DNA of 64,000 bases, from assembly GCA_963575745.1 (NCBI GenBank), contig CAUYUJ010017830.1:105001-169000 (forward strand), given 5' to 3'. A program made the translations under genes and the position numbers. The notes beneath the pieces were generated by a model, which saw only the letters and a list, made by a program, of their open reading frames with translations, had not been told where the DNA came from and ran no database searches. The DNA comes from Prorocentrum cordatum (taxonomy: Eukaryota; Sar; Dinophyceae; Prorocentrales; Prorocentraceae). Below, piece after piece: positions 8,824 to 55,201 of this stretch; position 1 is the stretch's first letter; the number at the start of each line of letters is the position of its first letter.

Positions 8824-9016
8824 TTAAATGGGATCTGGCTCGTCGTCGCGGGGGATACTATATGGCTGGTCCAAACGCTCCGATGGCATCGAGAAATAGC
8901 CTTTCTTGCTGTCCACCGGGCACTTGGCTGCGAACGCAGCCTGAGAGGACTCCGAGAGCAGATTGCGTTCTACCGCGACTATCCGCCTGTTCACGCGTTT
9001 AAACTCGTGCGCCATA
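8824..9016 (-). CDS. Terminal exon of the EF-hand voltage-gated cation channel
   Basis: Last recognised exon of the minus-strand channel gene. A TA..AAAG acceptor ends at 9017. The exon opens with one base that completes a codon, then reads MAHEFKRVNRRIVAVERNLL and continues through a lysine/serine-rich stretch to SIPRDDEPDPI and a TAA at 8826-8824. The basic, heptad-like helix after the EF-hands is the usual cytosolic end of dinoflagellate EF-hand channels; I know of no enzymatic role for it. Phase fits the upstream exon (two bases plus T). A GC donor after CAG at 8941 could end the exon earlier, but the frame stays protein-like to the stop, so a terminal exon is preferred. Confidence 0.68.
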
Positions 9017-9277
9017 CTTTTCCTTGGCAAGACTTGTCCGATCGGCCTGGCAGCAGTCCTCCTCTCTCCCCGACTCCTCGCTGGCCCTCCGCATCGTGCT
9101 CGTCGTCGCCCCCCTCCTCGTCCTCGTCCCCTGATTGCGGTACAGATCGCAGGGTGATCGCCGCACGCAAAGACACCAACATTCAATTCCCGAATATTGC
9201 GGCCAACGTTGTGCCGCCACTCTCTGGCGAACGGTGCCCGTTGGGCGACCGGCCTACCGATTTCAGATCAGGCCCAC

Positions 9278-9355
9278 AGCTGAGGACGCTTCTCGATGTA
9301 CTTGAGGTCCAACATCACGGCCTGAAGGTCGAAGCTGGTCGCGGAGCCCTTCAGC
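9278..9355 (-). CDS. Channel exon: helix following EF-hand 2
   Basis: The acceptor is CTCGAG ending at 9356. The exon reads (R)LKGSATSFDLQAVMLDLKYI, the segment that follows an EF-hand of the FVxGCMRL+G.A...D type in dinoflagellate voltage-gated channels. Its first base joins the AG left by the exon at 12556-12599 to make an arginine codon, giving the run G-C-M-R-L-K-G-S-A. The donor is either GT after 9278, or GA after 9293; both keep phase 2 with the terminal exon, 260-280 bp away. Confidence 0.75.
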
Positions 9356-9474
9356 CTCGAGGTTTTGGAACTTCCGCACACCCGCGCGCTGTATCTCGTC
9401 TCAGCTCCCATGATGCCCCCAGATGAGGGAGGATAGAGGCCGAAGCGAGGAGGGTCGATGAGAAGAGATACGGA

Positions 9475-9540
9475 GAGAGAGAGAGAGAGAGAGAGAAAGC
9501 GATTGAAAAAAAGGGAGAGAGAGAGAGAGAGAGAGAGATG
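9475..9540. repeat. (GA)n microsatellite
   Basis: Two GA-dinucleotide runs separated by a short A-rich spacer, within the intron upstream of the 9278-9355 exon. Confidence 0.9.
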
Positions 9541-9849
9541 GAGATATGGGAGGTGACGTGTGACTACGAAAAGGGCACCTCCCTCCCCTGCTCAATAATG
9601 CTTATCCTTCTCACCTTGTTCCCTGCTTCTCGACCTCCTTGCCTATACCTATACGCCCGCACGTGAGCCGATGACGAGGTCGGGAGGGATGGGGGTCGAA
9701 CCAATGACGGGACATCCATCGGGACGACCGACTCCATCCATCGAACAACCTCTCTCGGTCTCACGATCTATCCATCTCACTAACTGTCTACTGATCTCAC
9801 TACCATTACTCGCCGCCTTGCCGCTGGGCGCAGAGCGGGCGTGCCCTGC

Positions 9850-10405
9850 GGCCCTTTGCCTCGGCCCTGAAGCCTCAGTCCTCACGCCCGAAGGGCTTTA
9901 GCGGACACCGACGTCTCAAATCTTCTCGGGCTCGGCGCGGTTCCCCTGAGCTCCGAGGCACCTTCTCGTATGACCTGCTGGGGCCCAAGAGGGTTCTAGA
10001 ACGGACCAGCAGGGCCGCAAGAGGCCCCCAACACAGTCCGAGAGGGCCACGAGACGCCCAATGATGGTTCCAAGATGCCCCAGATGGCCCCCAGATGGCC
10101 CAAGAAGCGTCCAAGACGCACCAAGAGAGCCCCAAGAGCCTTCCCAAGCGGGTCCCGAGAGTCCAGAATCATTGATTTTCCTACTAAGAAGGTTGTTCAA
10201 TGATTTTGGGATCCTCGACTTCTCGAGATCCCGACGCTCAAAGACTGCCCAAAAGCCTCCACGCCCAAGACTGCCCAAGAGGCCACCCAGAAGTGCCCCA
10301 ACCTGGCCCAAAAGGCGCCCACGACGGCCTAAAGCTAGCCCCAAGGGCCCATAAAGGGGGACCGCGAACGGAACATCCGAGCCTTCCGCCCCAAGAGGCC
10401 CCCAG
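9850..10405 (+). repeat. Family H-related repeat
   Basis: Resembles 35600-36320. Both begin near a GCCTCAGTCCTCA string, contain many GGCCCAAGA units and end with GAACGGAACATCC.A followed by CCCAAGAGG. Open frames here are low complexity. Confidence 0.65.
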
Positions 10406-10412
10406 GAGCCCC

Positions 10413-10911
10413 AGTTGATATACTGACTCTGGCCGAGAGAACGTCCATCGCGCGACTCTTCGAGTCTTAGCGCGCTTCCCGTCATGCGCCAGCCCCCCCA
10501 GACCCCCCCAGTTGATACACTGCCTCTGGCCGAGAGAACGTCCATCGCGCGACTCTTCGAATCTTAGCGCGCTTCCCGTCAATACGTCTGAAGATGCGAC
10601 CCCCAACTTCACGATTTTGTGAGGATGTCTCGAGCGAAACGCTCATTTTGGGAATCCGCCAGGTCCCCGATCACGAGGCGATCCCGCGCGTTCCCCCCCC
10701 GGACCCCCCCCCCTTACAAAGAGTCCCTCTGGGCACACAGACGTCCATCGCGCGACTCTTCGAGTCTAAGCGCGTTTCCCGTCATCCGCCACGTCCCCGA
10801 CCACGAGTGCCTCCCCGCGTTCCCCCCCCAGACCCCCCTCAGTTGATACTGCCTCTGGCCGAGAGAACGTCCATCGCGCGACTCTTCGAGTCTCAGCGCG
10901 CTTCCAGTCCT
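10413..10911. repeat. Four copies of a hairpin core ACGTCCATCGCGCGACTC
   Basis: Cores start at about 10441, 10538, 10741 and 10867. Each contains CGCGACTCTTCGAGTC followed by a TAGCGCG-like arm: GACTC pairs with GAGTC around TTC, and GCGCG can pair with CGCGC outside. The spacers carry C-rich runs and a CAGTTGATA..CTGCCTCTGG string. Confidence 0.75.
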
Positions 10912-11643
10912 CCGCCGACCCCTTGGACGGCGTGTGAGATGCTCCCCCCTCCCCAAACCCCTCCCCCGGGAGCCCGGTCCGGCCGGTTTGGATGGGGGTG
11001 GGGGTGGGCGGGGGGGCAAAGGTGCAGCCGCACTCCGGGAGCCTCCAGGGGCCCCAAAACGGGCCCAGAGGGCCCCAAAAGGCCCTCCCCCCGGGACGGT
11101 CCAAGGGGGCCACGAGTCGCCGAGAGATCGCTCGAAGACGCCCAAGATCGCCTCCAGACGGTCCCAGAGGCCCCCAAGACGCCCCAAGAAGCCACCAAGA
11201 GGCGTCCCCAGAGCACATTCGCCTCTTGGGCTTTCACGAGGCCCACAACGGCCCAAGAAGCCCTTAAGATCGACCCAAGATAGCCCAAGAGGCCCCCAAG
11301 AGGGCTCCAAGACGGCCCAAGAGGGCCCCAAGACAGCCCCAGAAGCTTCCAAAACGACCCAGGAGGGCCCCAGGACGGCCCCAAGAGGAGGCCCAGAGGG
11401 GGAACCCGAATGAACATTTCGAGCACTCGGCCCCCAAAAAATCGGCTCCCAAGAGGCTCCCACGAGGCCCCCGAGAGGCCCAACAGAGGCATCAAAACGG
11501 CTCCCAAGAGGCCTCAAAAGTGCTGCCAGGAGAGCCCAGAGAAGCCCAAGAGCAGAGCGGCGATCCGCCAACCGCCCCCGACGAAATCGCAAGAAACTGA
11601 AACTCCGAGATTCCCCCGAAATCGTTCCGCAAGGGGTCGGCGG
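10912..11643 (+). mobile_element. 732-bp inverted-repeat element of family H
   Basis: A perfect 13-bp inverted repeat, CCGCCGACCCCTT at 10912-10924 and AAGGGGTCGGCGG at 11631-11643, bounds GGCCCAAGA-rich sequence with no coding potential. The same left end lies at 55856 and the same right end at 62232-62244. Homology with the second copy runs about 20 bp past the right repeat (to CCAATGAAT), so the exact right border is uncertain. Confidence 0.7.
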
Positions 11644-11727
11644 TGCGGCGTCAACCAATGAATAAAAAACGTTCGCGGGCCGGGTTGCCCCCTTCCCTTG
11701 GGTCGCCGCCGCCCCGTTGTACCCCCT

Positions 11728-12040
11728 CCGTTGTATTGCAATTGCGTTTCGTTGCAATCGCACTGCATTTCAGTCGCATCGAATTTCATTGCGTCGCATT
11801 GCTTTGCAGTCACATCGCATTGCAATCGCACTGCGTTGCAATCGCATTGCGTTGCATTCATTTGCATTGCTTTGCAGTGTCTTGCATTAACCTGCATCGC
11901 TATATCTTTGTACCTGTTGCATAACTTTACATCGCTGTGCATTGATTGGCGCTTCTTCTCTTTGCTGTGCTTGGTATTGCGTTGCGCTGCTTTGCGTTGC
12001 TTTGCGCGGCGTTGCATGGCTTTGCATTGCTTTACACCGC
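11728..12040. repeat. (ATTGC)n-like degenerate repeat
   Basis: Some 300 bp of degenerate GCATTGCGTTGCATT units, cysteine- and leucine-rich in any frame. Confidence 0.8.
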
Positions 12041-12555: not shown

Positions 12556-12599
12556 CTCATGCACCCACGGACGAAGCTCTTGATGTCGACTTGGCTGTC
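12556..12599 (-). CDS. Channel exon: C-terminal half of EF-hand 2
   Basis: 44 bp after a GAAGAG acceptor, reading DSQVDIKSFVRGCM plus AG. The pattern (V)DI..FV.GC.RL is the distal half of the second EF-hand in dinoflagellate EF-hand channels, where an acidic loop start is followed by a short strand and the exiting helix. The donor is GC (AG|GCTTTC). Splicing AG to the G of the 9355 exon gives Arg. The proximal half of the loop (F+LLD.D) was not located; an alternative acceptor two bases upstream is possible. Confidence 0.72.
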
Positions 12600-14403: not shown

Positions 14404-14451
14404 CCAATCCGGGGTCGCGTCACAGAGAGTATCGAAGAAATTCTGCACGTT
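14404..14451 (-). CDS. Possible exon, function unknown
   Basis: Between a CCAGCAG acceptor and a TGG|GTGGGC donor the minus strand reads NVQNFFDTLCDATPDW, 16 residues of protein-like composition. It falls between channel EF-hand exons and could be a channel exon, but I cannot align it to a specific part of the family. Confidence 0.3.
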
Positions 14452-15126
14452 CTGCTGGTTGAGACCTCACTTGCTGGCAACCCTCTGCAGCACACCCTGT
14501 GACAACACCCCGCTGGCAAATTCTGAGCTGACCATGCGCTCACCGGCGTAGCCCACTAGAGACAATGTAAACAAACATTGGGCATCGGCCTTGACCCCAT
14601 GCCCCATGGCTGCACACGTCTGTCACCATTATCCCCCTCCTGGTGTTCTTCCTCCCCCCTATCCCTGCTCCTCGTGCGCTTCCTCTCCTGCTGCTCCTCC
14701 TCCTGCCCCTCCTCTGGTCCTCAAGGAGCATCCATAAGATCAGCAGGAGAGCGCGAGGGCACGAGGAGGGACACGACGAGGGAGACACTGACGGTGAGGG
14801 CGAGGGAGACGGAGACATGGGAAATGACTCGTACATACTTGCAAGTGTGAGGACGACGCGGAGAATGGCGAGTTCTTCCTCTCCGCACGCAGAAAACAAA
14901 TCTCGTGGCAACACTTCTTAGAATAGGACGCCGGGAAAGCGCTCTCCACAGATGGCTTCGCGAAATCCTCACCCTCGAAGCGCCAGCTCCCAACATCTGC
15001 TGCGGGTGGGCCGCTGCAGGTGGGCCGCCGGCCTCCGTGGGTGCGAGAGCCCAGTTCTCGCAGTCCTTCGCCCGCCGGCGAGCCGACGCCCGCCGGCCCC
15101 CGTGGGTCGACAGGGGCCGACTTGTC

Positions 15127-17124: not shown

Positions 17125-17239
17125 CCAACAAGTGCAAGAGCAGAGGGATGCGGCCCTTTTCGATCCCGTCGTTGAACTGCTCCTTAGTGAGGCATCCGCT
17201 CTTGTCGGCATCCACGTCGATGCAGAGCCTCTCCAGTTC
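17125..17239 (-). CDS. Channel exon: EF-hand 1
   Basis: 115 bp after a TTTGCACAG acceptor, with a GT donor (TTGG|GTCCCG). It reads ELERLC, then IDVDADKSGCLTKEQF, then NDGIEKGRIPLLLHLL. The 12-residue loop DADKSGCLTKEQ has D, D, S, G and hydrophobic L at the canonical positions 1, 3, 5, 6 and 8. Position 12, normally Glu, is Gln, which would weaken calcium binding. The trailing IEKGRIPLLLHLLG matches the helix that follows the first EF-hand in dinoflagellate voltage-gated channels. It starts in phase 0 and ends in phase 1. Confidence 0.75.
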
Positions 17240-17604: not shown

Positions 17605-17716
17605 GGAGCATTTTACGGGGGGCTGCCCAGCGAGGATGTCCAGGGGTGGGCCGCAGAAGCAGGGATTGCAGTGGTAACCTCAGCACGTCAAGCCTCCTTC
17701 TGCGGCGGTTTGCCTG

Positions 17717-17896
17717 TACAGTCGGGGGCTTGACCTAAGGAGCCCAAAATAAGGAACGAGGCCCCTTTTCTCCATGAGTTAAACTTCGATTTCCGATCGA
17801 AAACATAAGGAAAACCTGAGGCAAGCTGCGAAACACTTAAGGAACGCGGAGCCCCTCCCCAACGAAAAGGGTTCCTTCTTCAGGGCACCGACTGTA
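17717..17896 (+). mobile_element. Family B element, copy 3
   Basis: 180 bp with TA at both ends, left CAGTCGGGGGCTTGACC and right CAGGGCACCGACTG. The body is nearly identical to 26423-26601. Confidence 0.88.
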
Positions 17897-18595
17897 TCTG
17901 GGGGCGCAAACAACAATGAACAGTTCCACCTCCTGAACCTTTGCCGTCGCCGCGCGGTCCTTTGCGTATCCCCTCTCCTCTGCGTCTAAATTCATCGCCT
18001 GCTGCTCTTTGTTCGGGGTCAAGCTCTGCATCGCGTTGTCGACGAAGATTCCTGGCAGCTTCAAACTGCCTGACGCTACTGTATCGCAATCTCCCCTGGC
18101 CGCTGCCATTTGAGATATGCACTGCCTGGTGCAACGCCTGTGTCCAATAACGGCTTGGAATCGAAGGGGGATGAGTGGAGTCCAAGTGGAGTGAGAAACG
18201 ACTCGCGCCCTGGTGAGCAGCATGGGCAATGACCACAATGAACGGATTGGAACACAGATGGGCTGGGAAACCGTCTGCTTCCAGACAAAAAACAATACAC
18301 ATTTGCATAGGTGATGCACTGCTACCCTCAGGCACGTGATGAAAACAATACCCCCCATATTATAGGACCCCCGCCGCGCATCACCTTTCCTTGAGGATCA
18401 CGGCGCCCATGTGGCGAACGGAGTCCATGCCCACAGGGCCGCGAATGGTATTCCCAAGTTGTGAAATTGGAAAGCTGCTCACATGGGCGAACGGGGGCGG
18501 GTTGCCGAATCGATTCGTGATTGACATTTTGTGCATCTTCCCCACTGTCCCAACACAATGCAAGCACTTAGGGGCTCTCCCTTCTCCTCTAAGGA
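17897..18595. other. No gene seen
   Basis: Unique sequence; frames on both strands lack domains. Confidence 0.45.
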
Positions 18596-22480: not shown

Positions 22481-22512
<32 letters not shown>

Positions 22513-25587: not shown

Positions 25588-26422
25588 AGCGTACGCCTCC
25601 ACCCCTGAGACACCCACGGCCCGCCGCCAGCGCGCTTGGCGCGGGCAGGCAGACGCCGCGCTCACCCCCGCTCACGGCTGGGAACAACACTCGCGGACCA
25701 GCTCGACATCACCACCAACGGCTCCATTCACGACGCCCATCTCGGCCCTGCTACCACGAAGGCGCGACCTGGAATCGACTCTGCGCCATGTCACGCACGT
25801 GGGCGCGCTCGCCTTGCATGGCGCCAGTGCGCTCAAGGCCGCGGCAACGGGGGTGTTGGTCTCCCTTGTCCTCGCCGTCTGGGCCCTAGCCGTGTCTGGC
25901 GCGGTCTCGTCCGTCTGCTCCTTGCAATAGCTGCACGGCGTCGCCAGATGCACCGCAATCGCGATCAAGTCCGTCATCTCTCTCGAGCTCAACACCACCG
26001 ATCGCGGGATCTGGCGGGCTTGTCGCACGCGACCTCTGCGCGCACGTCGGCCGCCGAACCCCGCGCCACACTCAGCGCAAACATCCGCGTCCTCATGGCG
26101 CAACGTGTCCAAACGCCCGTACCTGAGCGTCGCCCCCGCACTCTGCCAGCCGTGATGGCCAAGCATGGTACCCCTCTAAGCCGGCAGTTCACCCTCGGGG
26201 CCACGAAACGACCTGACAGGTGAGCCTCGGCGCCGAGATCGCCCGTTTTCTTCCCGTCGTCGACCTTCCTGGCCCGCAAGCCGCTGCAGGGGCTCCGGCG
26301 ACGCCCAGGAGATCCTCGCGCCCAAGTGGTCCACGCAGCTCGGGCCGTCGCGCATCGGCATATCATTGACCGCGGCGCTGTGACTCCATGTCGCAGGTGA
26401 CCTCGCAGCCCAGCTGCTCGAA
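25588..26422. other. GC-rich unassigned sequence
   Basis: Several overlapping frames are open on both strands. A minus-strand REMTDLIAIAVHLATPCSYC stretch (about 25921-25985) was considered and rejected as a confident call. Confidence 0.4.
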
Positions 26423-26601
26423 TACAGTCGGGGCGTTGACCTAAGGAACCCTAAATAAGGAACGAGCCCCTATTTTCCATAAGTTAAACCTCGATTTCAT
26501 AGCGAAAACATAAGGAAAACCTGAGGCAAGCTGCGAAACACTTAAGGAACGCGGAGCCCCTCCCCAACGAAAAGGGTTCCTTCTTCAGGGCCCCGACTGT
26601 A
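26423..26601 (+). mobile_element. Family B element, copy 4
   Basis: 179 bp between TA dinucleotides. Ends CAGTCGGGGCGTTGACC and TTCAGGGCCCCGACTG are close to perfect inverted repeats over the outer 10 bp. Confidence 0.9.
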
Positions 26602-27200
26602 GGTGCCGCGCGACCTCGCTGTCCACAGCCGCCGAGGCCGCCCCGCACGGCCCCGCCGCCCCTGCAGAGGGGGGCTGCGCGGGCCCCTGGCGAACGAGGG
26701 AAGCACGCGGCGCCTCGTCCGCGAAGGCAGCGCCATGCGGTGCGGCCACTTTCCGCGGGTGGTCGGACAATCTGCGTGCAGTCCCCCGATCGAAAGGACT
26801 ATCAAGCCTGCTCGGATGCTGATGTGTTTTGTGTGCCAAGCGCAGGTAGCTTTCGCCCTCCAGGGGCTCTTCAGCCGAAATGGCACTGCACAGAAGCATC
26901 GGATGAAAGGTCGCATCATCTGCGAGGTGGGCCTTGCTCTCCTGCGAGCTCGCGGCCCCTCTTGCGCCGACGCTCAGGATGCTCGAGAGCGCCCGCGCGG
27001 CTCTCCTCGCGCCGATCTCCGTCGGCGACTTGAGCGTGCGCGCCAGGAGCTCCGCGCCCACCTTGGCGTCCCAGCGGCCCGCTGCCGCGCAGCGCAGGGT
27101 CCCCGCCCATCTGCGGAAGTTCGCCACCTCGACGCGCTTCGCCGACCTCGGGCCGCTATCGGAGCTCGATCGGCCTCCACGTGCATCGGGCTCCCTCCAG
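26602..27200 (-). CDS. Possible exon(s), function unknown
   Basis: The minus strand at about 26920-27160 has a protein-like frame (for example VANFRRWAGTLRCAAAGRWD, later ELLARTLKSPTEIGARRAAR) with GC-rich third positions. No family was recognised, splice borders are not fixed and the other frames are also open, so this is a weak call. Confidence 0.22.
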
Positions 27201-27813: not shown

Positions 27814-27913
27814 NNNNNNNNNNNNNNNNNNNNNNNNNNNNNNNNNNNNNNNNNNNNNNNNNNNNNNNNNNNNNNNNNNNNNNNNNNNNNNNNNNNNNNN
27901 NNNNNNNNNNNNN
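27814..27913. other. Assembly gap (100 N)
   Basis: Exactly 100 Ns, the usual placeholder for a gap of unknown size. It lies between purine-rich repeats on both sides. Confidence 0.98.
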
Positions 27914-31260: not shown

Positions 31261-32756
31261 AGATTGTCCGCCAGGCGTGCCCCCCAACCTTGCCTCCGCC
31301 GTCCTCTTCCAGGGCACGCCGACTTGTGGGGGGGGGGGTACTTGTTCCACACGTGTTTTTGTTCCGACGTTTCCCGACCCCTGCCGCCCCGCTGGAAATC
31401 GAGGGTAAGTTTGGGCCTTTGGGTTGGGTTGGGGTAGTTTGCTGGGTGGTGGGTATCTATCCAGGGCAGTTGCCGCCACGCTGTCACCCCAGTCCCCCAG
31501 GCAGGCGCAAGCCCCGAACATTAGAACCGACTGCTCGACTCCAGCACGATCGATCGGGGAGTCCGAAGAACTCGCCCCCTCTCTGGTGCCCACCGGCTGC
31601 CTCTTCGGCGTTGCGGGCACCGACCCCATCAGCGCATCAAGCATCTAATATCGATATCGCTCGGGAAGACGCCACGACCGCGAGGAGCGTCGCCGAGCGG
31701 CTCGTCCCGCCACATGCGAGGCTACATCTGGCGCGCCCCAGCCGACTGGAATCAGCTCACAAAAGCTACCATCATGCAATCATGTCGATGCAAGGAGGGT
31801 GTCGAGAGAAGATCGGGTGCCAACCTTTTGAAACTGTGAGTCCACAGGGGGGCCCACTAAGGCCTTCGAAGCCCCCAAGACGCCTCAAGGAGGCCTCCAG
31901 CAAAGCCAATAACACAGACATGTATATTGGGTCTATGTGTGTTGTTGCATCCGAGAGCTTCCGGCCTCAATGCGATCTCGGGAAAGGCTTCAACTCCCAA
32001 GAACTTGGACATTCCAACACGCCCGCAAGAAAACACTGAGATGGCGGCCCGATAAAGCCCACAACACCACAGCCCAAGCATTTGCCAAAATGGCCCCGAT
32101 ATGGTTCAACCAACCGCTTTCGGGATAGCTCAACAATAACAATCACGTCCAAGAGCTTTTGAGAAAACCTCAAGATCCCCTCCGAGATAGCCCCTGAGAG
32201 GTCTCCTATCATGTGCCCCAAGAAAGTGCCCGAGAAGCAATGCAACGTCGCGGCTGCGCCACGCTGCAACATCGTAGCAATGCTCACTAAACGATCCCAA
32301 AATGGTACGGAGCTTGTAGGGAGCAACCGGTATAGCCAACATGCATGCGTTTGAATGCTACGATGGCGCAGTGGCGGGGTTAGCCGCAGGCAGTTAGATC
32401 TGCGAGAAGGCGACGAACAACATGTAGAAGAAGGCGGCCGTGAAACCTTGGGGAGACCAGGATACAATGGCGGACACGAGACTTTAGAGAGTTCCGACAT
32501 GAAACGTGGGCATGTCCCCCAAGACCCTGTGCACTTGCCCCCCAGTGTTGCTGCACGCTTCGGGCTTCTCGCTCAGTGGGGCTGGCGTGATGCACGCAGT
32601 CTGGGCTGCCGCAAACCAGCGCCATATCGCACCTGGAGACGGCCGTCCGAAGAGCTCGAAGGGCCAAACAGAGCAGCAAACCTGCACTGGCCAATCTCGT
32701 CATGGGGGTGCTGCGCCCAGACTCCGACGTCCGGATTTTTTCCTCAACGTCGACGT
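31261..32756. other. No gene seen
   Basis: Includes a family-H-like CCCAAGA-rich stretch near 31855-32300. No domain or convincing exon. Confidence 0.4.
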
Positions 32757-33602: not shown

Positions 33603-33782
33603 TACAGTCGAGGCGTTGACCTAAGGAACCCTAAATAAGGAACGAGGCCCCTTTCTCCCACAAGTTCAACCTCGATTTCCGATGGAAAACCTCAGGAACA
33701 CCCGAGGCAAACTTTGAAACAGTCAAGGAACACCGAGCCTCTCCCCAGCGAGACAGGTTTTTTCTTCAGCGCCCCGACTGTA
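33603..33782 (+). mobile_element. Family B element, copy 6
   Basis: 180 bp, TA-flanked, ends CAGTCGAGGCGTTGACC and TTCAGCGCCCCGACTG. It lies 123 bp from A copy 6. Confidence 0.87.
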
Positions 33783-38395: not shown

Positions 38396-38514
38396 GCAAC
38401 ATTACAGCGCCAGGAGAGGCCTGCGCGCAGCGAGGACACGTGGTCACCATGGGCAGACGCAGCCAGCGACGGACGGGGAGGGGGCGGCCCGCTTCTGCAG
38501 CCCCCGGCGGCCGC

Positions 38515-38570
38515 ACTGCGAGATGATGTCAAGGCCGACGCCCCAGTCCTCCCCGCCGAAGGACGCCTCG
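38515..38570 (-). CDS. Channel exon: pore loop and selectivity filter
   Basis: After a CCCCCGCAG acceptor the minus strand reads EASFGGEDWGVGLDIISQ plus one base, with a GC donor (CAGT|GCGGCC). A glycine-rich turn followed by E-D-W is the signature of a P-loop filter: calcium-channel domain II has T-G-E-D-W, and many dinoflagellate channels have (S/T)GG.DW. The glutamate suggests a calcium-permeable or non-selective pore; this is inference. The pore helix should be in an upstream exon that was not found. An alternative acceptor (GCAGCGAG) would start the exon at 38566. The retrotransposon lies in the intron just upstream. Confidence 0.65.
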
Positions 38571-38745: not shown

Positions 38746-38806
38746 CACAACCCTCCCATCATGCAGCATCCATTAGCGTACCGCACACCCTTCCTTTACA
38801 CATTCT

Positions 38807-39953
38807 TTGTGGCCTCGCCGCTCACGATCTCGGGGCGGGAACGCCACGGGACGCACGCGCCCTTGTGGGCCCATGGGTTCTTTTCTCAGATTGGCACTTT
38901 ACAATCCTCTCTCTTTGGTGGAAATGGACAGACCTTCTCAGATATGGAGAGAAATACATGCAGATATAATCGGCTTGGCAGGCACCAGGCTCCGAGCACC
39001 ACCAGGCTATCCCGTTCAAGAGTGGCAGCTCGAACACGGAGGCTTCGGACCCTCAGCGGGCTGGACATCGGCCCCCTTTTCGAATCGACCTGCTGGTTGT
39101 ATGTTGATGATGACACAGAAGATGCGCAGGGGGATACGGACGATTGCGACCCCACCACCGTCGGCGCAGGGCCGCGGCCTCGCCGTGAGGATCGTCCGAG
39201 GCTCCCTCGACCTCACCATTGTATTGCTGTACTTACCCCCGCCGAAGGACGACAGTGCTCGCAAGCGACGGGCGCTGGAGAAAGGATCTCGAGAGCTGGT
39301 TCATTGGGCGACACAACAGATCAAAGCCACGCCAACCCGATCGACACCGATTGTGATGGGCGGCCTGAACACGGGCATAGGCTTGAGGAATGGCTCGCTG
39401 TTGTCCCATCCACAGTTCGAGATCGAGGCGAGGGGCCCCCTGGACATCATCGGCGGCCACAACCTGGGCAATCATACCGTCATTGGCGATCAGATTTGGG
39501 AAGATCTTATTCTACCTCATAACATGATGAATGTTGGCAGTTTGTATGACGCAGCTGGGCCCACATATTATCACTATGATGGATCGACGAGTACTGTTGA
39601 CCATATTTTGATGCCACTATCGATTCATGATCAGATTAGACGCAGCTTTATCCCATGGAGCTCGGCTCGGCGACTGCAGTTGATACCGAGCGCGATGCCG
39701 AGGGGCCACGTACCAATCGTCGTCGAGTTCACGGCCTACCAGCACCGCAACCATGCTCCAGACACTTTCCGCTGGGATCGTGATAAGCTGGCGGCGGCTC
39801 TGCAGGAAGGCACCAACCGACTGGAGTTCCAGGAAGCCCTGGAGACCGCGTTTACCGAGTGCACGGAGCTGACACAGTACGGCGACGACGGGGACATCGA
39901 CAAATACTGGCAGACTTGGGTCACGTTAGTGAGGACGTGCGCACAACGTTTTT
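38807..39953 (+). pseudogene. Retrotransposon endonuclease/exonuclease/phosphatase-like domain
   Basis: The EEP fold cuts target DNA to prime reverse transcription. The order of family motifs is visible: LALYNPLSL at the start, DIIGLAGTRL, then VMGGLNTGIG, then STVDHILM and GHVPIVVEF. In active enzymes the corresponding positions are an E in the second motif (L-Q-E-T-like), D in G-D-x-N and D in S-D-H. Here all three read Gly, while Asn, the S..DH.I motif and the last His are kept. Either this copy is inactive or this lineage has a diverged site. The frame runs into a 7-T stretch at about 39949-39955, after which the protein continues in another frame. A start at the later Met (MGSFLRLALYN) is equally likely. 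Confidence 0.78.
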
Positions 39954-40250
39954 TTCGGCCAGACTCAGCGCACGGAACATCCCGAGGCCGTCCGTCTTCG
40001 GGAGCGACGTCGCGAGCTGGTACGACTCCGTGCTGCGGCTCGGGAGCGGCTGGGGGACCAGGGCGAGGAGTACGCAGGCATCCTGAAGCACTAGCCCATT
40101 CTCTTCCCAGAGTACCAGGAGCTGCAGGACATTCGCACCACCCTTCGTCAGCTGCGACGACGGGAACAGGCGGAGCGACGGCGGCGATTCGAGCATGACA
40201 TTCATGAGGCCCACCGCCTTCGGCGTTTTGCGGAGGTGTATCGTATTTTT
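39954..40250 (+). pseudogene. Retrotransposon linker, frameshifted and with a stop
   Basis: After skipping one T the protein continues FGQTQRTEHPEAVRLRERRR, an Arg/Glu-rich helix. It meets TAG at 40092 and resumes as EYQELQDIRTTLRQLRRREQ toward VYRIF. A second 7-T run at about 40246-40252 returns the frame to that of the endonuclease. This basic coiled segment joins the endonuclease to the reverse transcriptase. Confidence 0.7.
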
Positions 40251-40252
40251 TT

Positions 40253-42238
40253 CCGCTGGCAGCTCGCTGCGGACCCCGCAAGAGGAAGTGCCGTGTGCCC
40301 ACGCCCCAGTCGTCGAAGGAGGAGTGGAGGAGTTACCTTGCGGGGTCGCCGTACGAGGGAGGCATGCGCGCCCAGGAGATCGATTGCGCGAGCGAGCTCG
40401 AGATTAGGCCAGAGTTTTTCGACGCGACCGAGATGCCTGCCGAAACTAACGAGGAGCATCGGTTTTGGGTCGAGAGAGATCTTCGAGCTACTCTCAGGTC
40501 CTAAAAAAAGCGCCCCAAAAGACGAGCTGCCCCTGCCTGGAGTGCACCGACAGAAGTTTTCTTGATGGCAGCCGAGTCTAGTTATGTTTCACGTGCTGAT
40601 GAGCCCAGACTGGGACTGGGAGCTGAGCGAGTAGGCGAGCTACCGCCCTCTCAGGCGTATACCCACCTGGAGCAACTACACTGGTGGATTCGAGTTTTGA
40701 AGCGAGTACCGAAGCTGGCCCACCTCTCCTGGGGATGCCCGATCTTGAAGCCGAACGGAAAGCATGGTCCTGGGGGAAAACGCCTCATACACGTATTCTG
40801 CCCCTACTGGAAGGGCTTCTATGGGGCCGCTATACGACGAGGTCTGCAGTCACAAACCCAGGACTGGCCGGCCAATTTCCACGGCTTTCTGCCCGCACGG
40901 CGTCGTGACGACGCCCTTGCAGTTCAGCTCTGCGTAGGACATCGACTACGGAAGCGAAAGCAGGCTCATCTGAATAATCTTCACGATATGTCAAACGCTT
41001 TCGCTTCCACCGCGCCCGAAGCTCGTCGTCGAGCGATCCGTGATCTCGTCCTCCCCCGAGATCAAGAGCTGTTTGAACATCGAGCGGAGCATGCGGCTAT
41101 CTTCTTGGGCTTTGTCGAAGGGGGGGATGAGCCATGGAGGGATGCACGGAATCTTGTCATACGACACGGATGTGGGGGCTTGATGGGATCTAGTGAGGGG
41201 CCCGTTTATCTTTGCTAAGATTATGCAACGACATTTTCACGCCTGGCGCCCGACACGACCAGCGGAGCTGGCCATCACCTTGCAGTGCGGTATATTTCCC
41301 CGCCAGATCGACGGCGGCACGAGTGTCTTCGCTGATGATATCTTTGATAAGATCCTTGTACGCAGTGGCGAGGCTGGTGAGGCCCATCTTCTCACGCAAC
41401 AGAGTGATGCGACCCTGGGCGAGGAGCTGCATCTGGTAGGCCCCCTCCAGAATAAGGGGAAACGCGAAATCGTACCCAGCTTTCATCGGTCCCAGGAGAC
41501 TAAGAGGTTTAAGGAGCTTACTCAGGAGGGGAAGATCTTACCTCGGGCACGGTATCTTGGAGGCAGATACGCTTGGAACTTAGCGACGATGGAGGAGCTG
41601 CAGTTTAGGTGTTCAGCTATGAGAGTGGGTTGGGCAAAAATGGGAAGTCTGTGGGGAAGCCGTATATCAAGCAAGCTGAAACTTCTGGCGTTCCAGGGAC
41701 ACGTTATTGAAGCTGGTTTATCGGCAAACGAGGCCTACGTTTTCTCTGAGAAAATGACAAACCAGATGGACACTATCGTAGCCAAGTGCTTAAGAGTTTT
41801 GGAGAGGGGCAAGGCTACTGACTGGGGTGGCAGCCATCTTCAGAGCCTCCCTCACGCAGTACTTCGACGTAGATGGAAGGTGATTCCTACTAGGTGCGCA
41901 CAAGCCTCAAGACGCTTTGCCTGGACCCAGAAGATGGCCCGAGACCCCGGGGCCCACGCCCAAGTTATTGCTGCTCTCTGGGGAACCCTCAATGATGGAC
42001 CTCCCGCTTTGGACCCACAAGGACGCCTCGCACGGGATGCCCCACCTCTTGCGCACCAAGTTGAGACCGACTTGTGGATGTACGCTAGCATCAGCGGCAC
42101 CGAGGACTTTTTCGAGCGATGGAGTGATCACGGCTACTCGTACATCGCACTGTTTGGTGACGACGAGGTGCGAGATGCTTGGCTTCGCATCGGCCCGTCG
42201 ATCCTTAAGGCAGCGATCTTGACCGAGGGCGAGACTTT
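40253..42238 (+). pseudogene. Retrotransposon reverse transcriptase
   Basis: Copies the element RNA into DNA at the nick. Fingers: TPQSSKEEWRSYLAG near 40297, a TAA at 40502-40504, then KPNGKHGPGGKRLIHVF near 40750. Motif A is HDMSNAF, with the catalytic Asp at about 40985. A motif-B-like region is GCGGLMGSS (about 41170-41193). There the first frame ends at a TAA at 41216, and the protein continues in the next frame as RGPFIFAKIMQRH, overlapping by about 25 bases. Motif C is VFADDIFDKIL with FADD at 41328-41339, so both catalytic Asp pairs remain. A thumb region follows (ARYLGGRYAW, KLKLLAFQGHVIEAG). FADD rather than YADD is typical of LINE-type enzymes. Confidence 0.85.
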
Positions 42239-42700
42239 TTTTTCCAGAACTTGCGAAGACCTGCTCGCGCTGTGGCGCCCCCGACGGAAGAAGGACAGTC
42301 GGCATTCGCGTGTACGCTTCGCGACGAGAACGGGGCCCTCTGTTGCCAGACCTTCGAGACCCACGGGGCCCTTACTGCTCATATGTTTCAATCTCGGGGT
42401 GGTGAACATGGAAAACGAAACCCGCTGTTCACGTGCGTGGTCTGCAATCAGTGCCCTTGGTGCCGTTCGACGTTTTCGACGCGTGATAGTGCCCGCCAAC
42501 ACGTTCGATCGTCTTGGGAGAGCTTCAAATGTTGCCTCGGTCGGTCTCGTTTCCCGTGGCCCCTGAGTTGCCCCAACACCATCAAGTGCACCTGTTGCGA
42601 AACCTTCGATACCATGGACGAATACAACACACATGCCGTGCAGCAACACCTTCCTCACCCTTCGCCCGTGGCAGTTTCTTCCCAGACACCTCATCGCTCT
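42239..42700 (+). pseudogene. Retrotransposon C2H2/CCHC-like zinc-finger region
   Basis: After an 8-T run at about 42236-42243 the frame changes and reads FACTLRDENGALCCQTFETH, then HGALTAHMF, then FTCVVCNQCPWCRSTFSTRD with SARQHV, then CTCCETFDTMDEYNTHAVQQ. Spacing of Cys and His pairs fits two or three nucleic-acid-binding fingers after the reverse transcriptase, as in R2-like and several protist LINEs. The frame changes again in the G-rich stretch near 42700-42740. Confidence 0.7.
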
Positions 42701-42740
42701 CCGACGCCAGCCGACAACCAGCCGCGTGGGGGCCACCGAC

Positions 42741-43406
42741 CCAGACCAGACTGTGATGTTCGGACCTCCTGGCGGCGGCGCGGCGGCGGCGGCAAGCGAG
42801 GGCGGCAGGGGCGGAGGATCCCGACGTGTCCGACAGCGCGGAGAGGGCGAAAAGAAGACCGACCTCGGCTTCAAGGGCCAGCAGAAGACGATGCAGGTGC
42901 TGATGCTCAAGTTCTTGCTGCAGCTCGGGCAGTCGAAGAGGAACGTGGAGGGGGTCGTCTTCGACTGCGCCCTGATCGACACGAACAGCCACGGAGCGAC
43001 ACGGATGAGCGAGATGGGCACGAAGTACTCGGACGCGGTCGCGGCTCAGTGCCGCGGCCACAGCCTCGGGCCGCCCCACCTCTGGGTCTTCGGTGGCCTC
43101 TTGATGGGCCTGATGGAGTGCAAGGAGGCAGTGGGCGCACAGAACGCGAAGAAGCTAACCGAGCTGAGGACCGAGCTCGAGAAGATGGAGGCCATCGCCA
43201 AGGCCGACAATATCCGATTCTGCAGGATGGACAAATGCTACGATCAGAACAAAAAGAAGGTGCTGTTGAACCTCGACCCCGCGATCCGCCCGATCATCCT
43301 CGACTGCCTGGCCCAGACGGGCGCGGAACTGAAGCAGGGCCGTGCACCGCCCACCCACATGGAGAGCGAGCTCCAGGAGTGGCTCGAGGCGTTCACGGAC
43401 GCGTGA
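42741..43406 (+). CDS. Retrotransposon C-terminal conserved domain
   Basis: A clean frame with mixed codons: glycine/alanine-rich linker, then FKGQQKTMQVLMLKFLLQLG, later RGHSLGPPHLWVFGGLLMGL, a charged coiled coil (KLTELRTELEKMEAIAKADN) and MESELQEWLEAFTDA before TGA at 43404. The helical, Lys/Glu-rich make-up suggests RNA binding or self-association, but I do not recognise the family. The TGA may itself be a mutation, because the next codons stay open and protein-like. Confidence 0.6.
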   Translation, partial: PDQTVMFGPPGGGAAAAASEGGRGGGSRRVRQRGEGEKKTDLGFKGQQKTMQVLMLKFLLQLGQSKRNVEGVVFDCALIDTNSHGATRMSEMGTKYSDAVAAQCRGHSLGPPHLWVFGGLLMGLMECKEAVGAQNAKKLTELRTELEKMEAIAKADNIRFCRMDKCYDQNKKKVLLNLDPAIRPIILDCLAQTGAELKQGRAPPTHMESELQEWLEAFTDA

Positions 43407-44012
43407 GGGCTGAAAGGGGATCGAGGCGTTCCTGATGTTGTGAGTGCCGAGAGTGGGGCTCGAGGCGATCACGATGTTGTGAGTGCTGATAGAGAGAATC
43501 GAGGCGGCCCAAATTGTGTGAGTGCTAATAGTGTTTTGTGTGGTTCCGCTCATGATGCTGATGTGGTGCTACCTCCTGACAATGGGCGGGCTCAACGATC
43601 ATTGTCTTCCCCACCTCGTGCTGCGGCGGGACCCTCGGCCTCGACTGCTGCGCCCGCTTCTTCCTCGGCCAGAGCCGCACGACCTCCGACGCCGCCCCCG
43701 ACTTCTGAGCCGCGCCCCCCTTGTGCCACTACGACTCCCAGGGCGACTACGCGCCCCAGCGGACCGAATACGGCCACCCCCTCCTCTTCCGCGGCGCGAC
43801 GGCCCCGCACGTGCAGCCCTAGGCACGGCCCGTCCTCGTCCTCGGCTGAGTTCTGGGAAGCTAGGAAACGTGAGGCCCCTGATTCAGCATGTGTAAATAC
43901 GCATCTCGAACGTAGGGGGATCCATAAGAGGCACCCCAAATATCAAGTCATGTTTAGGAGCCAGCAGATTTTGACACTAGCTAGAAGAGAATTCGAGCAG
44001 GTGCAGATCTAA
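43407..44012 (+). CDS. Retrotransposon tail, low-complexity frame
   Basis: Same frame as the preceding domain after its TGA. It opens with three imperfect repeats around DVVSAES, DVVSADR and NCVSANS, passes through a Ser/Ala/Pro/Thr-rich stretch and ends KRHPKYQVMFRSQQILTLAR plus REFEQVQI before TAA. It may be the true C-terminus of the polyprotein or a separate short frame. Confidence 0.45.
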   Translation, partial: GLKGDRGVPDVVSAESGARGDHDVVSADRENRGGPNCVSANSVLCGSAHDADVVLPPDNGRAQRSLSSPPRAAAGPSASTAAPASSSARAARPPTPPPTSEPRPPCATTTPRATTRPSGPNTATPSSSAARRPRTCSPRHGPSSSSAEFWEARKREAPDSACVNTHLERRGIHKRHPKYQVMFRSQQILTLARREFEQVQI

Positions 44013-47010: not shown

Positions 47011-47364
47011 TCCTCCATCTACTATGCCTCATCGTCCGCTCCTCCTCCTGCTTTTCCCCTCCTTCTCCTCGCCCCACTTCTCCCCTCCCCGTTGTCACTG
47101 TTATCCCCCCCTCCCCTCGGACCCTGCTTGTGTTCCGAAGTCGAACGAGGCTCCTAACACTTCGCCGCTTCTGACATCCCCTCTGCCTTCCCAAGCGTCA
47201 GCATCGCCATCTGCACGCTGGCGAAGTTATCGAGAAGAGATTGGGCAGCAGGATGGCTTGTGTCGCCTATCTCCTGGCATGTGGAGGGGAATGGGGGGAG
47301 ACACGAAGAGTGGGGGTGGCCGCAATAGGGGATGTGTACATGGGGAGCAGGAGAGAGCCAGAGA

Positions 47365-48337: not shown

Positions 48338-48443
48338 CCCTTTCCGTGAGAAGGGAGGCCAGCTAGCCGCTTCTCGCTCCTCAATCTGCGAGGCGGCCTG
48401 CTGAACGAAGATCAGCGAGAAGATGTAGAAGACGATGCAAAGC
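48338..48443 (-). CDS. Channel exon: S5 (C-terminal part) and turret
   Basis: After a GCGCGGAG acceptor the minus strand reads LCIVFYIFSLIFVQQAAS, a transmembrane helix ending in the F.QQA motif typical of S5 in dinoflagellate channels, then the charged loop QIEEREAASWPPFSRKG. Its first base completes a Met codon with the AT of the upstream exon. The joined helix then has 18 residues from the conserved Trp to the Gln, the usual spacing. The donor is probably GGG|GTTCCA at 48337, but the frame stays open and charged (GVPQELREPGPWGEEDKEKE), so the exon could be longer. Confidence 0.75.
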
Positions 48444-51337: not shown

Positions 51338-51409
51338 ATGAGCACGCTCCACAGGAGGGTGACAAACGACCCCTGAATGCAGACAAGGATCGCCCGCAGT
51401 GTCCGGAAC
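51338..51409 (-). CDS. Channel exon: S4-S5 linker and start of S5
   Basis: 72 bp between a GCCCCAG acceptor and a GT donor (CTCAT|GTTCTG). It reads FRTLRAILVCIQGSFVTLLW then SVL plus AT. F-R-x-L-R followed by an amphipathic linker and L-W is the standard S4-S5 connection of voltage-gated channels. Its first base completes a Gly codon with GG from the S3-S4 exon, and its last two bases complete Met with the S5 exon. The intron to S5 is about 2.9 kb and holds E element 48683-48860 and the 800-bp CCT tract. Confidence 0.78.

Positions 51410-51511: not shown

Positions 51512-51513
<2 letters not shown>

Positions 51514-51608
<95 letters not shown>
51514..51608. repeat. T(83)A(12) homopolymer tract
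   Basis: 83 consecutive T followed by 12 A. It may be a poly(A) tail of a minus-strand retroposed sequence whose body would lie at 51609 and beyond; no such body was identified. Confidence 0.9.
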
Positions 51609-51985: not shown

Positions 51986-52165
51986 TACAATCGAAACGCT
52001 GTTGTAAGGGACCCTGAATAGGGAACGAGGCCCCTCTCTGTCATAAGTTAAACTTCGACTGCCCATGGAAGCCCTAAGGAACACCGGAGAACAACTGCAA
52101 AACAATTAAGGAGCACTGAGCCCCTCCTCATCGAAAAGGGTCCCTCCTTCAGCGGCCCGCCGGTA
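51986..52165 (+). mobile_element. Family B element, copy 7 (old)
   Basis: 180 bp, TA at both ends. The body follows family B (AGGAACGAGGCCCCTCTCTG-like, AGCCCCTCCTCATCGAAAAG) but with many substitutions, and the right end reads GCGGCCCGCCGG. Confidence 0.75.
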
Positions 52166-52250
52166 GGGAAGCCCGTGGGGGCTGTCCATGAGCAGCCCTG
52201 ACAATCTTCACCCGCGGCCTTTCCCACCGCGTGCTGGTCTGCCCTCCAGG

Positions 52251-52426
52251 TACAATCGAACCTATGTCAAAAGACCATCCCTTAAGAACATGTAACCCTC
52301 CGTCGGCCAAAGCAAACAGAACGGCTAGGGATGCCCTTCCCAGGGTGCACAAGAACATCTAGCAAATACGAACAACACTAGGGTACCCTCCCCGAACCGA
52401 CCTCGCTATACCTCGGTCCGACTGTA
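52251..52426 (+). mobile_element. TA-flanked inverted-repeat element related to B
   Basis: 176 bp with TA flanks. The left end CAATCGAACCTATGTC and right end GACCTCGC..CGGTCCGACTG are imperfect inverted repeats in the CAGTCG style, but the interior differs from family B, so this may be a separate family. Confidence 0.55.
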
Positions 52427-53229
52427 TGTGGACCATTCTGCCGGATCTTCAACGACTACTCCTCTACGAGCCCGTAGAATTGAAGGTATGGGCAAACGGG
52501 TCATGATGATCATGATGAGGAGGATGAGGAGGGTGATGAGGACGAACAGCTGCAGGGTGGATCAATTAAGAGGAGAAGACGTGACAGGACCGAAAACACT
52601 GAGAGAAGGATGCGCAAGCGGTACCCACTCGACAATGAAGAGGATGAGATGGAACAGGGTGAGGATGATAATACACAGGAGTAAGCGTAGGGTAACACAC
52701 CTATCAATCATTCAGACACGCCAAGTACGTGGTCTCTGAGAGGATGGGTTGGCAGACCAAGAAAACACCTTGCCGCATGCGACAATGCCGACGTCGTCGC
52801 CGCCCCCGTCGTCGTGCATTTCCTCGCGTTCCACCCCCCTCATTCTGCCTCCTCCTCCTCCTGCCCTCTCCTCTGCCTCTTCGCCGTCCGTCTCCTCCTC
52901 CCCCTCTTCCGCTTCCCTCATCGTCTCGCCTTCCTCCTCCGTCCTGCCTCCTCCTTCTCCTCCTCTCCTCCATCAGCCTATTCCTCCCTTGTGCTCCTCC
53001 ACCCAAGGTTCCCCGCGTGCTCCTTCCACGTCCTCGTCCTGTTCCTCCCTCCTCATCCTCATCCTCGTCCTCCTCCCTGATCCTCCTCCCCCCGTTGACA
53101 CGATGATGGGCACGGGCAGCTCTGGCCCAGTCGATCGGGTCGCCCGCGCAAGGGGCATTCCGCCGGCGCCCCCGGCGTGAGCGTGGCGCTCGACGAGGAT
53201 GAGGGTTTGGGGGAGAGGACGAGGGCGGA
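52427..53229. other. No gene seen
   Basis: A GATGAGGA-rich patch near 52500-52550 and CCT-rich DNA from 52800 to 53080. Confidence 0.45.
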
Positions 53230-53480
53230 GGGACGCCGACGACGGAGGAGGAGGAGGAGGAGGAGGAGGAGGAGGAGGAGGAGGAGGGAGGAGGAGGAGG
53301 AGGAGGAGGAGGAGGATGAGGATGGAGGAGGAGGACGAGGGAGGAGGAGGAGGAGGAGGATAGGAGGAGGAGGAGGAGAGAGGAGGAGGAGGAGAGAGGA
53401 GGAGGAGGAGGAGAGGAGGAGGAGGAGGAGGAGTAGAGGAGGAGGAGGAGGAGGAGGAGGAGTAATGAGGAGGAGGCGAG
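53230..53480. repeat. (GAG)n microsatellite
   Basis: Long GAG/GGA run. GGGGCAGGG-type 60-bp repeats follow near 53580-53670. Confidence 0.93.
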
Positions 53481-54264
53481 TGCAAAGGGAGAGGGAGCGA
53501 GTGCGAGTCCGGGGAAAGGCTCGCAGGCGTCGCCCGACTGCTCCTTCCCCGCCCGCGTCCAGTGCGGAGGGCAGGCGCAAGGCTGCGCGGGAGGGGGCAG
53601 GGGGAGGAGCGGAGGGGGCAGGGGGCAAGGCTGCGCGGGAGGGGGCAGGGGGAGGAGCGGAGGGGGGGGGAAGATGGGCAGGAATGCGGCGAGGGACGAG
53701 ACTCACAGGTGTGCGGAGGGCTTCCTCTGCTTTCGGGAAGGCCTCCAGGTACAGATGCTTCGGGGGAGGGGCGTGGGAAGTGGGAGGAGGACGGAGTAGG
53801 ACGGAGGAGGCTTGGGAACTCCGTCGCCGTCGTGACGTTTGTCGTGGTCGTCGTCGAGAGCGGCGTCGTCTTCGTCAGCCCACTTCCTCCCCTCCTCAGC
53901 AGCATCGACACCAGGAACCTCCAGTGCTCCTCCTCCTCCTCCTCCTCCTCCTCCTCCTCCCCCTCCTCCCCTCACTCCCCCTTCGCGTCCTCCCCCTCCT
54001 TTCCCTGCCCGACTTCCTCCTCCTGCACCTCCCCCTTATCCTTCCTCCCCTCCCCTCTGGAACTCCCAAGGCCCCTTCTGCTTCTCTTCGCCCTCCTCGC
54101 CTCCTCCTCGCCTCCTCCTCCTCCTCCTTCTCCCTCCTCCTCTCTCCTCCTCCTCCTCCTCCTCCTCCTCTCTCCTCCCCCTCCCCCTCCTCCTCCTCCT
54201 CCTCCTCCTCCTCCTCCTCCTCCTCCTCCTCCTCCCTCGCGTCACCTTCGGGCCTCCCGAGAAC
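53481..54264. repeat. G-rich duplication and (CCT)n tract inside a channel intron
   Basis: CTGCGCGGGAGGGGGCAGGG occurs twice (about 53584 and 53631). 53925-54240 is CCT repeats ending just 3' (in gene sense) of the S4 exon donor. Confidence 0.75.
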
Positions 54265-54416
54265 CCTGCGATCACCTTCAGCGCGCGCAGAGCCTTGCCG
54301 AGCTTGAGGATGCGCACGGTGCGCAGGGCGGTAGATCCGCCGCCCCCGTCGGAGAACCAGAAATCCACGTATCCGCTGATCACCAAGAAGAAATCGAACG
54401 AGTTGAAACCGGCATC
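54265..54416 (-). CDS. Channel exon: S3 and the S4 voltage sensor
   Basis: 152 bp after a TTGAG acceptor. It reads (DAG)FNSFDFFLVISGYVDFWF, an S3 helix with the conserved N-x-F-D entry, a short SDGGGGS loop, then LRTVRILKLGKALRALKVI with basic residues every third position, the defining S4 pattern. The donor is most simply GT at 54264 (GCAGG|GTTCTC), leaving GG; a shorter exon ending AAGGT with a GA donor also keeps phase. The loop between S3 and S4 is short, as in single-domain and plant-type sensors. Confidence 0.85.
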
Positions 54417-55120
54417 CTCAAGGACGAGGCATACGGAGATGAGGGGTGAGGCGGGGGATACATATGAGGAAAACGCGGGGAAGGCGGAGTTGGAGCAGGA
54501 GGACGAGGAATATGCTTGCGCTGTACAGATTATCTCCGATTCCTCCGAACAATCGAGTTTCGTGGGGCCTCTCTCAGACCAAGCCTGTCTACATCTCTGG
54601 CAAAGGAGGCTGGCTCGAAATTGATTGGCAATCAAACACAATCTAAACGTTCACCTGGCGAGGTCGATTGCTCAGTATCTCCCCAGTCCGTGCTTGTCCT
54701 TACAGTGAGCGCCTCGGCGCTCAGTTCACCAAGCGATGACGAGGAGGATGCAGGAGGAGCGTGGAGGCAATCTGGAGGAACGAGGGCGATGAACGCAGAA
54801 TGAAGCAACACTTCACCCCAACAACGCTGAGGAACGCTAAACTTATACCAACAAAACAGTTGACATGCGTCTGGGCAGTCTGAAGCTCGTACCACATAAC
54901 ACAGCGCGGCACGACGGGGACACAAAGTGTGTATCTGGGACGCAGCTGGAGCAACGAACGCTGGTTCAGTGACAACAGAGATCTGCGCGTGGTAACCAAC
55001 GTATGGCAATGAACTAATAATGTCATTCTCAACTTACTCCGGAATCTAATTATCACCGTTGGTCGATATCAGCAGCCTGCTACACTGAACGCTGAACGCT
55101 ACGGCTTCGACATTGCTTGC

Positions 55121-55201
55121 TCTGTGCCCGCGTTCCTCGTTCCAAAAGAAGAACTGGCGGTGCAGGGCCAACTTCAGACACAACTCCACAGTGTAGATAA
55201 T
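55121..55201 (-). CDS. Channel exon: S2
   Basis: After a CCATGCAG acceptor the minus strand reads IIYTVELCLKLALHRQFFF then WNE. (I/F)(Y/F)T(V/L)E..LK is the classic S2 motif of voltage-gated cation channels, with the Glu that serves as a counter-charge for S4. The exon can end at GAG (55136, GA donor) or at AGA (55121, GC donor GCAAGC); both are phase 0 and join GAT-GCC of the S3 exon. The shorter version gives FFFWNE-DAGFNSFDFF, closer to the usual S2-S3 spacing. The intron to S3 is about 0.7 kb. Confidence 0.82.

Follow-up and report, generated by a model that had tools for sequence, protein, structure and literature searches.

Exon structure of the locus

We analysed a window of 64,000 nucleotides from the dinoflagellate Prorocentrum cordatum (assembly GCA_963575745.1, contig CAUYUJ010017830.1, here C16981, positions 105001-169000); the assembly that was searched comprises 4,128,499,153 bases in 21,875 contigs. 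On the minus strand of the window lie 13 short exons, each about 32-199 bases long and spread over 46 kilobases (kb), which very probably belong to one gene. Its product would be a single-domain, six-transmembrane channel of Nav/Cav/EukCat type that carries a pair of EF-hands at its C-terminus. A first-pass annotation had proposed a voltage-gated cation channel from nine exon types in the order S2, S3-S4, S4-S5 linker, S5, pore filter, EF-hand 1, EF-hand 2 end, post-EF helix and stop. All nine were recovered, on this strand and in this order, when L052, a paralog from the same genome, was aligned to the window with splicing; exons for the pore helix, the first part of S6, the post-S6 region and the start of EF-hand 2, together with S1 outside the window, were added. 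The features, with the evidence that places each, are as follows.

55136-55201, minus strand: S2 exon, IIYTVELCLKLALHRQFFFWNE, GA donor (animal and bacterial profiles, L052 spliced alignment)
54265-54416, minus strand: S3-S4 exon, RTVRILKLGKALRALK, six basic residues spaced by three (profiles, L052 alignment, paralogs)
51338-51409, minus strand: S4-S5 linker and start of S5, FRTLRAILVCIQGSFVTLLWSVL (L052 alignment, near-identical in L052)
48380-48443, minus strand: S5 exon, LCIVFYIFSLIFVQQAASQIE (profiles, L052 alignment)
47187-47273, minus strand: S5-P loop and pore helix exon, EIGDTSHPAAQSLLDNFASVQMAMLTLGK (found via paralog L052)
38512-38566, minus strand: selectivity filter exon, ASFGGEDWGVGLDIISQC (L052 alignment; FGGEDWG identical in L052)
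32401-32446, minus strand: first part of S6, GFTAAFFYMLFVAFSQ (L052 alignment, which ends at 32415; 3' boundary uncertain)
27814-27913, no strand: assembly gap of 100 N between the S6 and post-S6 exons (sequence)
17960-18051, minus strand: end of S6 and post-S6 helix, GIFVDNAMQSLTPNKEQQAMNLDAEERGYAK (L052 alignment; 5' boundary 18051 or 18058)
17125-17239, minus strand: EF-hand 1 exon, loop DADKSGCLTKEQ, position 12 = Q (EF profile, paralogs, L052 alignment)
14410-14465, minus strand: EF-hand 2 start, LNQQNVQNFFDTLCDATP (L052 alignment)
12556-12599, minus strand: EF-hand 2 end, DSQVDIKSFVRGCM, GC donor (EF profile, L052 alignment)
9293-9355, minus strand: post-EF helix exon, LKGSATSFDLQAVMLDLKYI (paralog matches, L052 alignment)
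8824-9022, minus strand: terminal exon with stop, KSMAHEFKRVNRRIVAVER...EPDPI* (L052 alignment to 8965, remainder read to the stop codon)

The extent of about 46 kb given in the first pass, which listed no coordinates for individual exons, has exact end points: the S2 exon starts at base 55201 and the stop codon finishes at base 8824. The gene continues past the window. Some 20 kb separate S2 from S1, which lies upstream at window coordinate ~75 kb. Alignment of L053, the N-terminus of the same paralog, to the upstream contig sequence placed S1 exons at 75265-75232 and 74964-74860 and a pre-S1 exon at 84676-84621 (window coordinates); exons further up, such as 93392-93318, are less certain and are lost at a higher intron cost. 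This upstream part alone scored 69.9 bits (plus strand 22.6, reversed 26.6), the total with L053 was 515.9, and the gene extends over 75.8 kb between its pre-S1 exon and the stop. A run of 5000 N occupies 75414-80413, directly upstream of the S1 exons on C16981. Within the window, tandem repeats of 53 and ~82 bases form long arrays upstream of the S2 exon (56600-62020), in a region whose open frames are as long as 1206 amino acids.

Comparison with paralogs in the same genome

From the assembly we took 44 channel loci (8 + 36), 43 of which contain a channel frame. In L052, taken from contig C15811, S2 to S6 are encoded in one open frame that includes DNFKSVQTSMVTLAKAAFGGEDW, and after an intron a second frame runs from post-S6 to the stop. 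Spliced to the minus strand of the window, L052 aligned in 13 exons at 454.6 bits, against 25.2 for the plus strand, 24.4 for the reversed sequence and 34.1 for the best of 60 shuffles. The same alignment located the pore helix at 47.2, the filter at 38.5, S6 at 32.4, post-S6 at 18.0 and the start of EF-hand 2 at 14.4 kb. The one-gene reading of the first pass is borne out by this paralog, which encodes the same series in two open frames at 72-73% identity (128 of 176 residues in the membrane part and 113 of 157 in the C-terminal part); it also carries the previously joined peptides in open frames, which confirms their junctions. The in-phase joins had themselves been offered as evidence; agreement of phase alone is weak evidence because candidate donors and acceptors are dense.

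Sequence comparison establishes an exon series from S1 to the stop, in which S6 is partial, with splice-compatible joins at GT, GC and GA donors, collinearity with a compact paralog and sequence constraint. The conclusion that the exons form a real gene of the dinoflagellate, encoding a voltage-gated cation channel and belonging as a fairly ordinary member to a family known to be large in this genome, is well supported on these grounds. Both halves of the gene are matched in one open frame of a further paralog, L051 on C13941 (68.8 and 44.7 bits). In two genome searches, one with the S2-S5 query and one with the EF half, each scoring 150 candidates, at least 149 S2-S5 matches and at least 97 EF-half matches were found. 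Among the 93 EF-half matches listed outside C16981, 61 have an S2-S5 match on their 5' side, on the same strand and within 100 kb; 32 have none within 100 kb, and none has a sensor half only in the wrong order or strand. In 10 of these 61 the EF-hand and sensor halves are more than 10 kb apart, with a maximum of 45.5 kb, so the wide spread is not unique to this gene.

Two further kinds of channel were seen among the loci. L002, L004, L005 and L006 have the filter TGESWSE, the seven residues reported for EhEUKCATB1, and by eye no C-terminal EF-hand in the open frame. L001 (C8247:339688-343560) contains a frame of 556 amino acids in which a channel domain of K+ type (TTVGYGD) comes first and a second domain like it begins after it.

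Voltage sensor and pore

The full model, which includes the S1 that lies beyond the window and joins S6 across the piece that is missing, matched Ion_trans (PF00520) at 72.3 bits (E 4.6e-20, cut-off 25) over positions 9-216 of the 241 in the profile. The S2 and S3-S4 exons alone reached 25.9 bits, and the first 49 residues of the S3-S4 exon gave E 5.5e-4. Basic residues stand at every third position of S4 (R, R, K, K, R, K in ALRTVRILKLGKALRALK, exon 54416-54265). At E <= 0.001 there were 56 PDB matches, made up of Nav, Cav, bacterial Nav-type and 'ion transport protein' entries and one two-pore channel; none is named as a K+ channel. A scan of the minus strand of the window for the K+ filter patterns TxG[YF]G and GYGD was empty; the filter here is FGGEDW. 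A TGELW motif at 62497-62511 (minus strand), upstream of S2, is in the wrong place for a filter and probably reflects chance.

The PDB matches are mostly four-domain Nav and Cav proteins, whose domain IV also ends in an EF-hand-like region, and the exon series could be taken for such a domain IV. We consider this highly improbable. Among the matches listed, the S2-S5 query found only the window's own exons on C16981, which points to one voltage sensor. L052/L053 has a single S1-S6 unit. No membrane segments are obvious in the stretch before that unit, and it is this stretch that the upstream exons of the gene match.

For a single-domain channel of this kind, the family suggests that four subunits would form one pore as a homotetramer. 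The six basic S4 residues would move on depolarisation and open the pore through the S4-S5 linker, the E-D-W filter would pass Na+ and/or Ca2+, and the EF-hand pair would sit under S6 as a structural or modulatory module.

Profile searches independent of the gene family

Profiles were made from animal channel segments and, in a second set, with bacterial channels; the animal rows are PDB matches to the hand-joined window peptide, which introduces a mild circularity. They were aligned with a splice-aware dynamic programme (donors GT, GC and GA, acceptor AG) to the window masked for simple repeats (3811 bases), a masking that was needed because the unmasked alignment picked poly-Met repeats. At an intron cost of -10 the animal profile scored 44.0 bits on the minus strand, through S3-S4 and S5. 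The plus strand gave 24.5, reversed sequence 23.6 and 17.7, and none of 120 shuffles more than 24.0. At a cost of -8, S2 joined the alignment (49.1 bits; plus 30.5, reversed 25.8 and 26.7). The profile with bacterial rows also picked S2, S3-S4 and S5, at 53.8 bits (plus 31.5, reversed 23.8, 60 shuffles at most 33.4). S2 (55201-55136), S3-S4 (from 54416) and S5 (from 48443) were re-found on the minus strand, in order and with splice-compatible joins.

Ungapped segments were ranked over both strands and two reversed controls. With the bacterial profile S3-S4 came first (38.2 bits), and a valine-rich stretch of the plus strand stood ahead of S2 (third) and S5 (fourth); the animal profile placed S3 first, S4 second and S5 sixth. 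The EF profile placed EF-hand 1 (17242-17156) first at 21.9 and the end of EF-hand 2 (12608-12555) second at 19.8, the next segment scoring 15.6. Searches of viral and prokaryote sequence collections gave no relatives and no motif matches, and the best PDB match to the EF half had E 0.24. A Pfam search with two minus-strand frames at 8.8-23.8 kb returned only a sub-cut-off mucin match, and one with ten large plus-strand open reading frames returned no family above cut-off.

Points against the assignment and alternative readings

Several observations weigh against reading the locus as one working channel gene. The animal and bacterial channel profiles found no pore in the window, set the linker at 49.3 or 52.7 kb and not at 51.4 kb, and, in the animal ranking, left S2 only fifteenth. 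The EF profile with introns was near chance (27.5 bits at cost -8, best of 100 shuffles 27.1), and EF-hand_1 stayed below its Pfam cut-off of 25.4 bits (13.6 for the full model, 17.1 for the EF-hand 1 piece alone). A bacterial pore-S6 profile gave no signal from S5 to EF-hand 1 (16.7/15.3 bits; plus 35.1/28.9, reversed 22.7/17.5). The sensor/pore half is separated from the EF half by the 100-N gap, about 7-8 residues of S6 are missing from the model, and exon G+C, with the exons as first drawn, is 56.9%, lower than the 59.9% of the whole window and the mean of 65.9% for P. cordatum coding sequence. The E-D-W filter gives no firm selectivity because similar filters differ in this property: as described in part of PMC8002053, TLEDWTD belongs to a Na+-selective bacterial channel and LEDWAS and LEDWAD to non-selective NaChBac mutants, and selectivity is not readable from the charged filter residues alone.

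The paralog decided the placement of the disputed exons. The linker exon at 51.4 kb from the first pass, at odds with the animal and bacterial profiles, was settled in its favour by the L052 alignment, after which a linker at 49.3 kb was dropped (Ion_trans 41.8 against 44.4 bits). The filter that the first pass had listed was likewise found, as FGGEDW, via L052. Three pore candidates picked by hand motif, at 33.4 kb (KSGDDW), 35.4 kb (IRGMYSLFTFSIT) and 32.9 kb (SGSRTW), were rejected: none raised Ion_trans (38.8-43.3 bits with them, 44.4 without), and the paralog sets the pore elsewhere. The stretch at 33.4 kb partly resembles repeats at 28.5 and 12.5 kb. An S6 candidate at 32.4 kb, also picked by hand motif, later proved right.

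With the gap at 27814-27913 falling between the halves, and a family this large, scaffolding might have wrongly joined what are really two genes, or two gene fragments, from one family. For the EF half we used a joined query of five exons, in which two junctions (EF-hand 2 start/EF-hand 2 end and helix/terminal) are each one residue short. This query matched single open frames on C15811 and C18304 at 74% and 69% identity, and the joined S2-S5 query matched the same two contigs at 78% and 76%. Both halves therefore share their two closest relatives, which a chance join would hardly give, and the exons on either side of the gap complement each other without overlap; a false join is accordingly very unlikely. 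The P. cordatum assembly was scaffolded with transcripts, according to a passage of PMC10666404, and if the 100-N join stems from that step, it would have a transcript behind it.

The missing part of S6 also bears on whether the gene is still translated. In the paralogs L062 and L063 this segment reads ...IIFVNFALMNIITGIFV and ...IAFVNLNLLNIILGIFV, whereas the window has ...FVAFSQ and then GIFV; the absent residues include the conserved Asn. A micro-exon scan for the piece gave 0 matches in the window and in L052's intron. It may lie in the 100-N gap; L052 may itself have lost part of S6. Together with the low exon G+C, the missing piece could suggest a pseudogene, a relic that still looks intact but has ceased to be translated. 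Against it, the 13 exons contain no stop and no frameshift, and comparison with L052 gave nonsynonymous (dN) and synonymous (dS) divergences of 0.175 and 0.829, with dN/dS 0.211 (bootstrap 2.5-97.5%, 0.152-0.289) and 0.21 in each of the membrane and C-terminal parts, some of which constraint could be on the paralog's branch alone. We regard a relic as improbable and favour one gene for a single-domain channel.

The EF-hand pair

The EF-hands of the first pass are present as a pair, collinear with those of the paralogs, but both loops are degenerate. The joined EF-hand 2 loop is DATPDSQVDIKS, with S at position 12, and neither loop has a full set of Ca2+ ligands or a Glu or Asp at that position. 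Ten members were compared: the gene in the window, L052, and L054-L061, which come from eight of the nine contigs that ranked next with the EF query. Position 12 was counted back by eye from the Phe at 13. In EF-hand 1 it is Q in eight, K in L061 and E in L055; in EF-hand 2 it is E in none of the ten. In L030 and L007, which are more distant, neither loop has lost its E. Without the position-12 Glu in either loop, weak or no Ca2+ binding is expected in this subfamily; the pair probably binds Ca2+ weakly or not at all, and a role in calcium sensing is doubtful.

Introns and repeats

Inside stretches that are uninterrupted in L052, the window gene has 11 introns of 270 to 8620 bases. L052/L053 has two introns from S1 to the stop, at or near intron positions found here (L052 boundaries set by eye), and L051 has none in the matched region; this gene has at least 12 from S2 to the stop. 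Of 11 assigned donors, three are GT, three GC and five GA, so most are non-GT. Runs of identity between the donor flank and the acceptor flank are longer when both come from one intron than when flanks of different introns are paired (sum 44 against 34.1, p 0.003, 20,000 permutations). The effect is modest; such identity fits insertion with target-site duplication, as parts of PMC11453091 and PMC10666404 report for introners.

For P. cordatum, sections of PMC10666404 give a genome of 4.15 gigabases in 22,724 scaffolds with 59.7% G+C, a mean intron of 4709 base pairs, a mean gene of 24,462 base pairs and GT/GC/GA donors at 24.7/51.4/23.8%. The spread of this gene is long but not anomalous because introns in the species average 4.7 kb. 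The wide exon spacing reflects long, repeat-rich introns.

Between the pore-helix and filter exons, the plus-strand frames 38777-42563 and 42209-43432 resemble a decayed non-long-terminal-repeat retrotransposon, with an endonuclease-like (DHIL) and a FADD motif. Pfam gave nothing for the first of these frames and a sub-cut-off zf-C2H2_4 match for 42209-43432 (22.1 bits, cut-off 27). An interspersed repeat of ~140-190 bases occurs in both orientations at 7475-7961, 17714-17900, 26422-26606, 33603-33782 and 51986-52165.

Tentatively, and with somewhat less than even confidence, we propose that the EF-hand pair of this subfamily became a calcium-independent structural or partner-binding part after loss of the position-12 Glu, and that the 11 extra introns here are consistent with introner-driven gain.

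Relation to known channels and meaning

Among the papers listed by literature searches, none dealt with this gene. Passages in PMC8002053 and in PMC11085791 describe EukCats, single-domain channels that occur in diatoms, haptophytes and dinoflagellates, and part of PMC6249206 lists the voltage-gated channel superfamily in the top 20 of each dinoflagellate taxon studied. As far as these descriptions go, the gene shares with EukCat and EukCatB a single six-transmembrane domain, a positive S4, a relation to bacterial Nav channels and a C-terminal EF-hand region. Its filter is FGGEDW, whereas that of EhEUKCATB1 is TGESWSE and that of OsEUKCATA1 TLDAWAD (PMC8002053, in part). EukCatB channels depend on intracellular Ca2+, potentially via the EF-hand domain, according to a section of the same paper; the loops here, compared with that description and not with EukCat sequences, are without the position-12 Glu. 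Animal Cav and Nav channels have a similar sensor and pore, not of K+ type, but four domains per chain and other filters. Two-pore channels (6TM-EF-EF-6TM, where 6TM is a six-transmembrane unit) likewise carry EF-hands after a six-transmembrane unit, whereas here a stop follows and no second unit was matched on C16981. The paralogs L052/L053 (C15811), C18304 and L051 (C13941) have the same domain series and motifs; L052/L053 and L051 differ from the gene here in intron number.

What is notable about this member of a known channel family is how widely it is spread and that its calcium-binding loops are degenerate. Annotation easily overlooks or breaks up genes of this kind, which have short exons, mostly non-GT donors, introns rich in repeats and a gap in the scaffold, and a compact paralog in the same genome is a cheap and general way to recover their models. 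The many-intron and two-intron copies, at 72-73% identity, form a clean pair for the study of intron gain or loss. In a dinoflagellate whose channel family is very large, the combination of an E-D-W filter with degenerate EF-hands offers a testable case of how excitability may be separated from calcium feedback.

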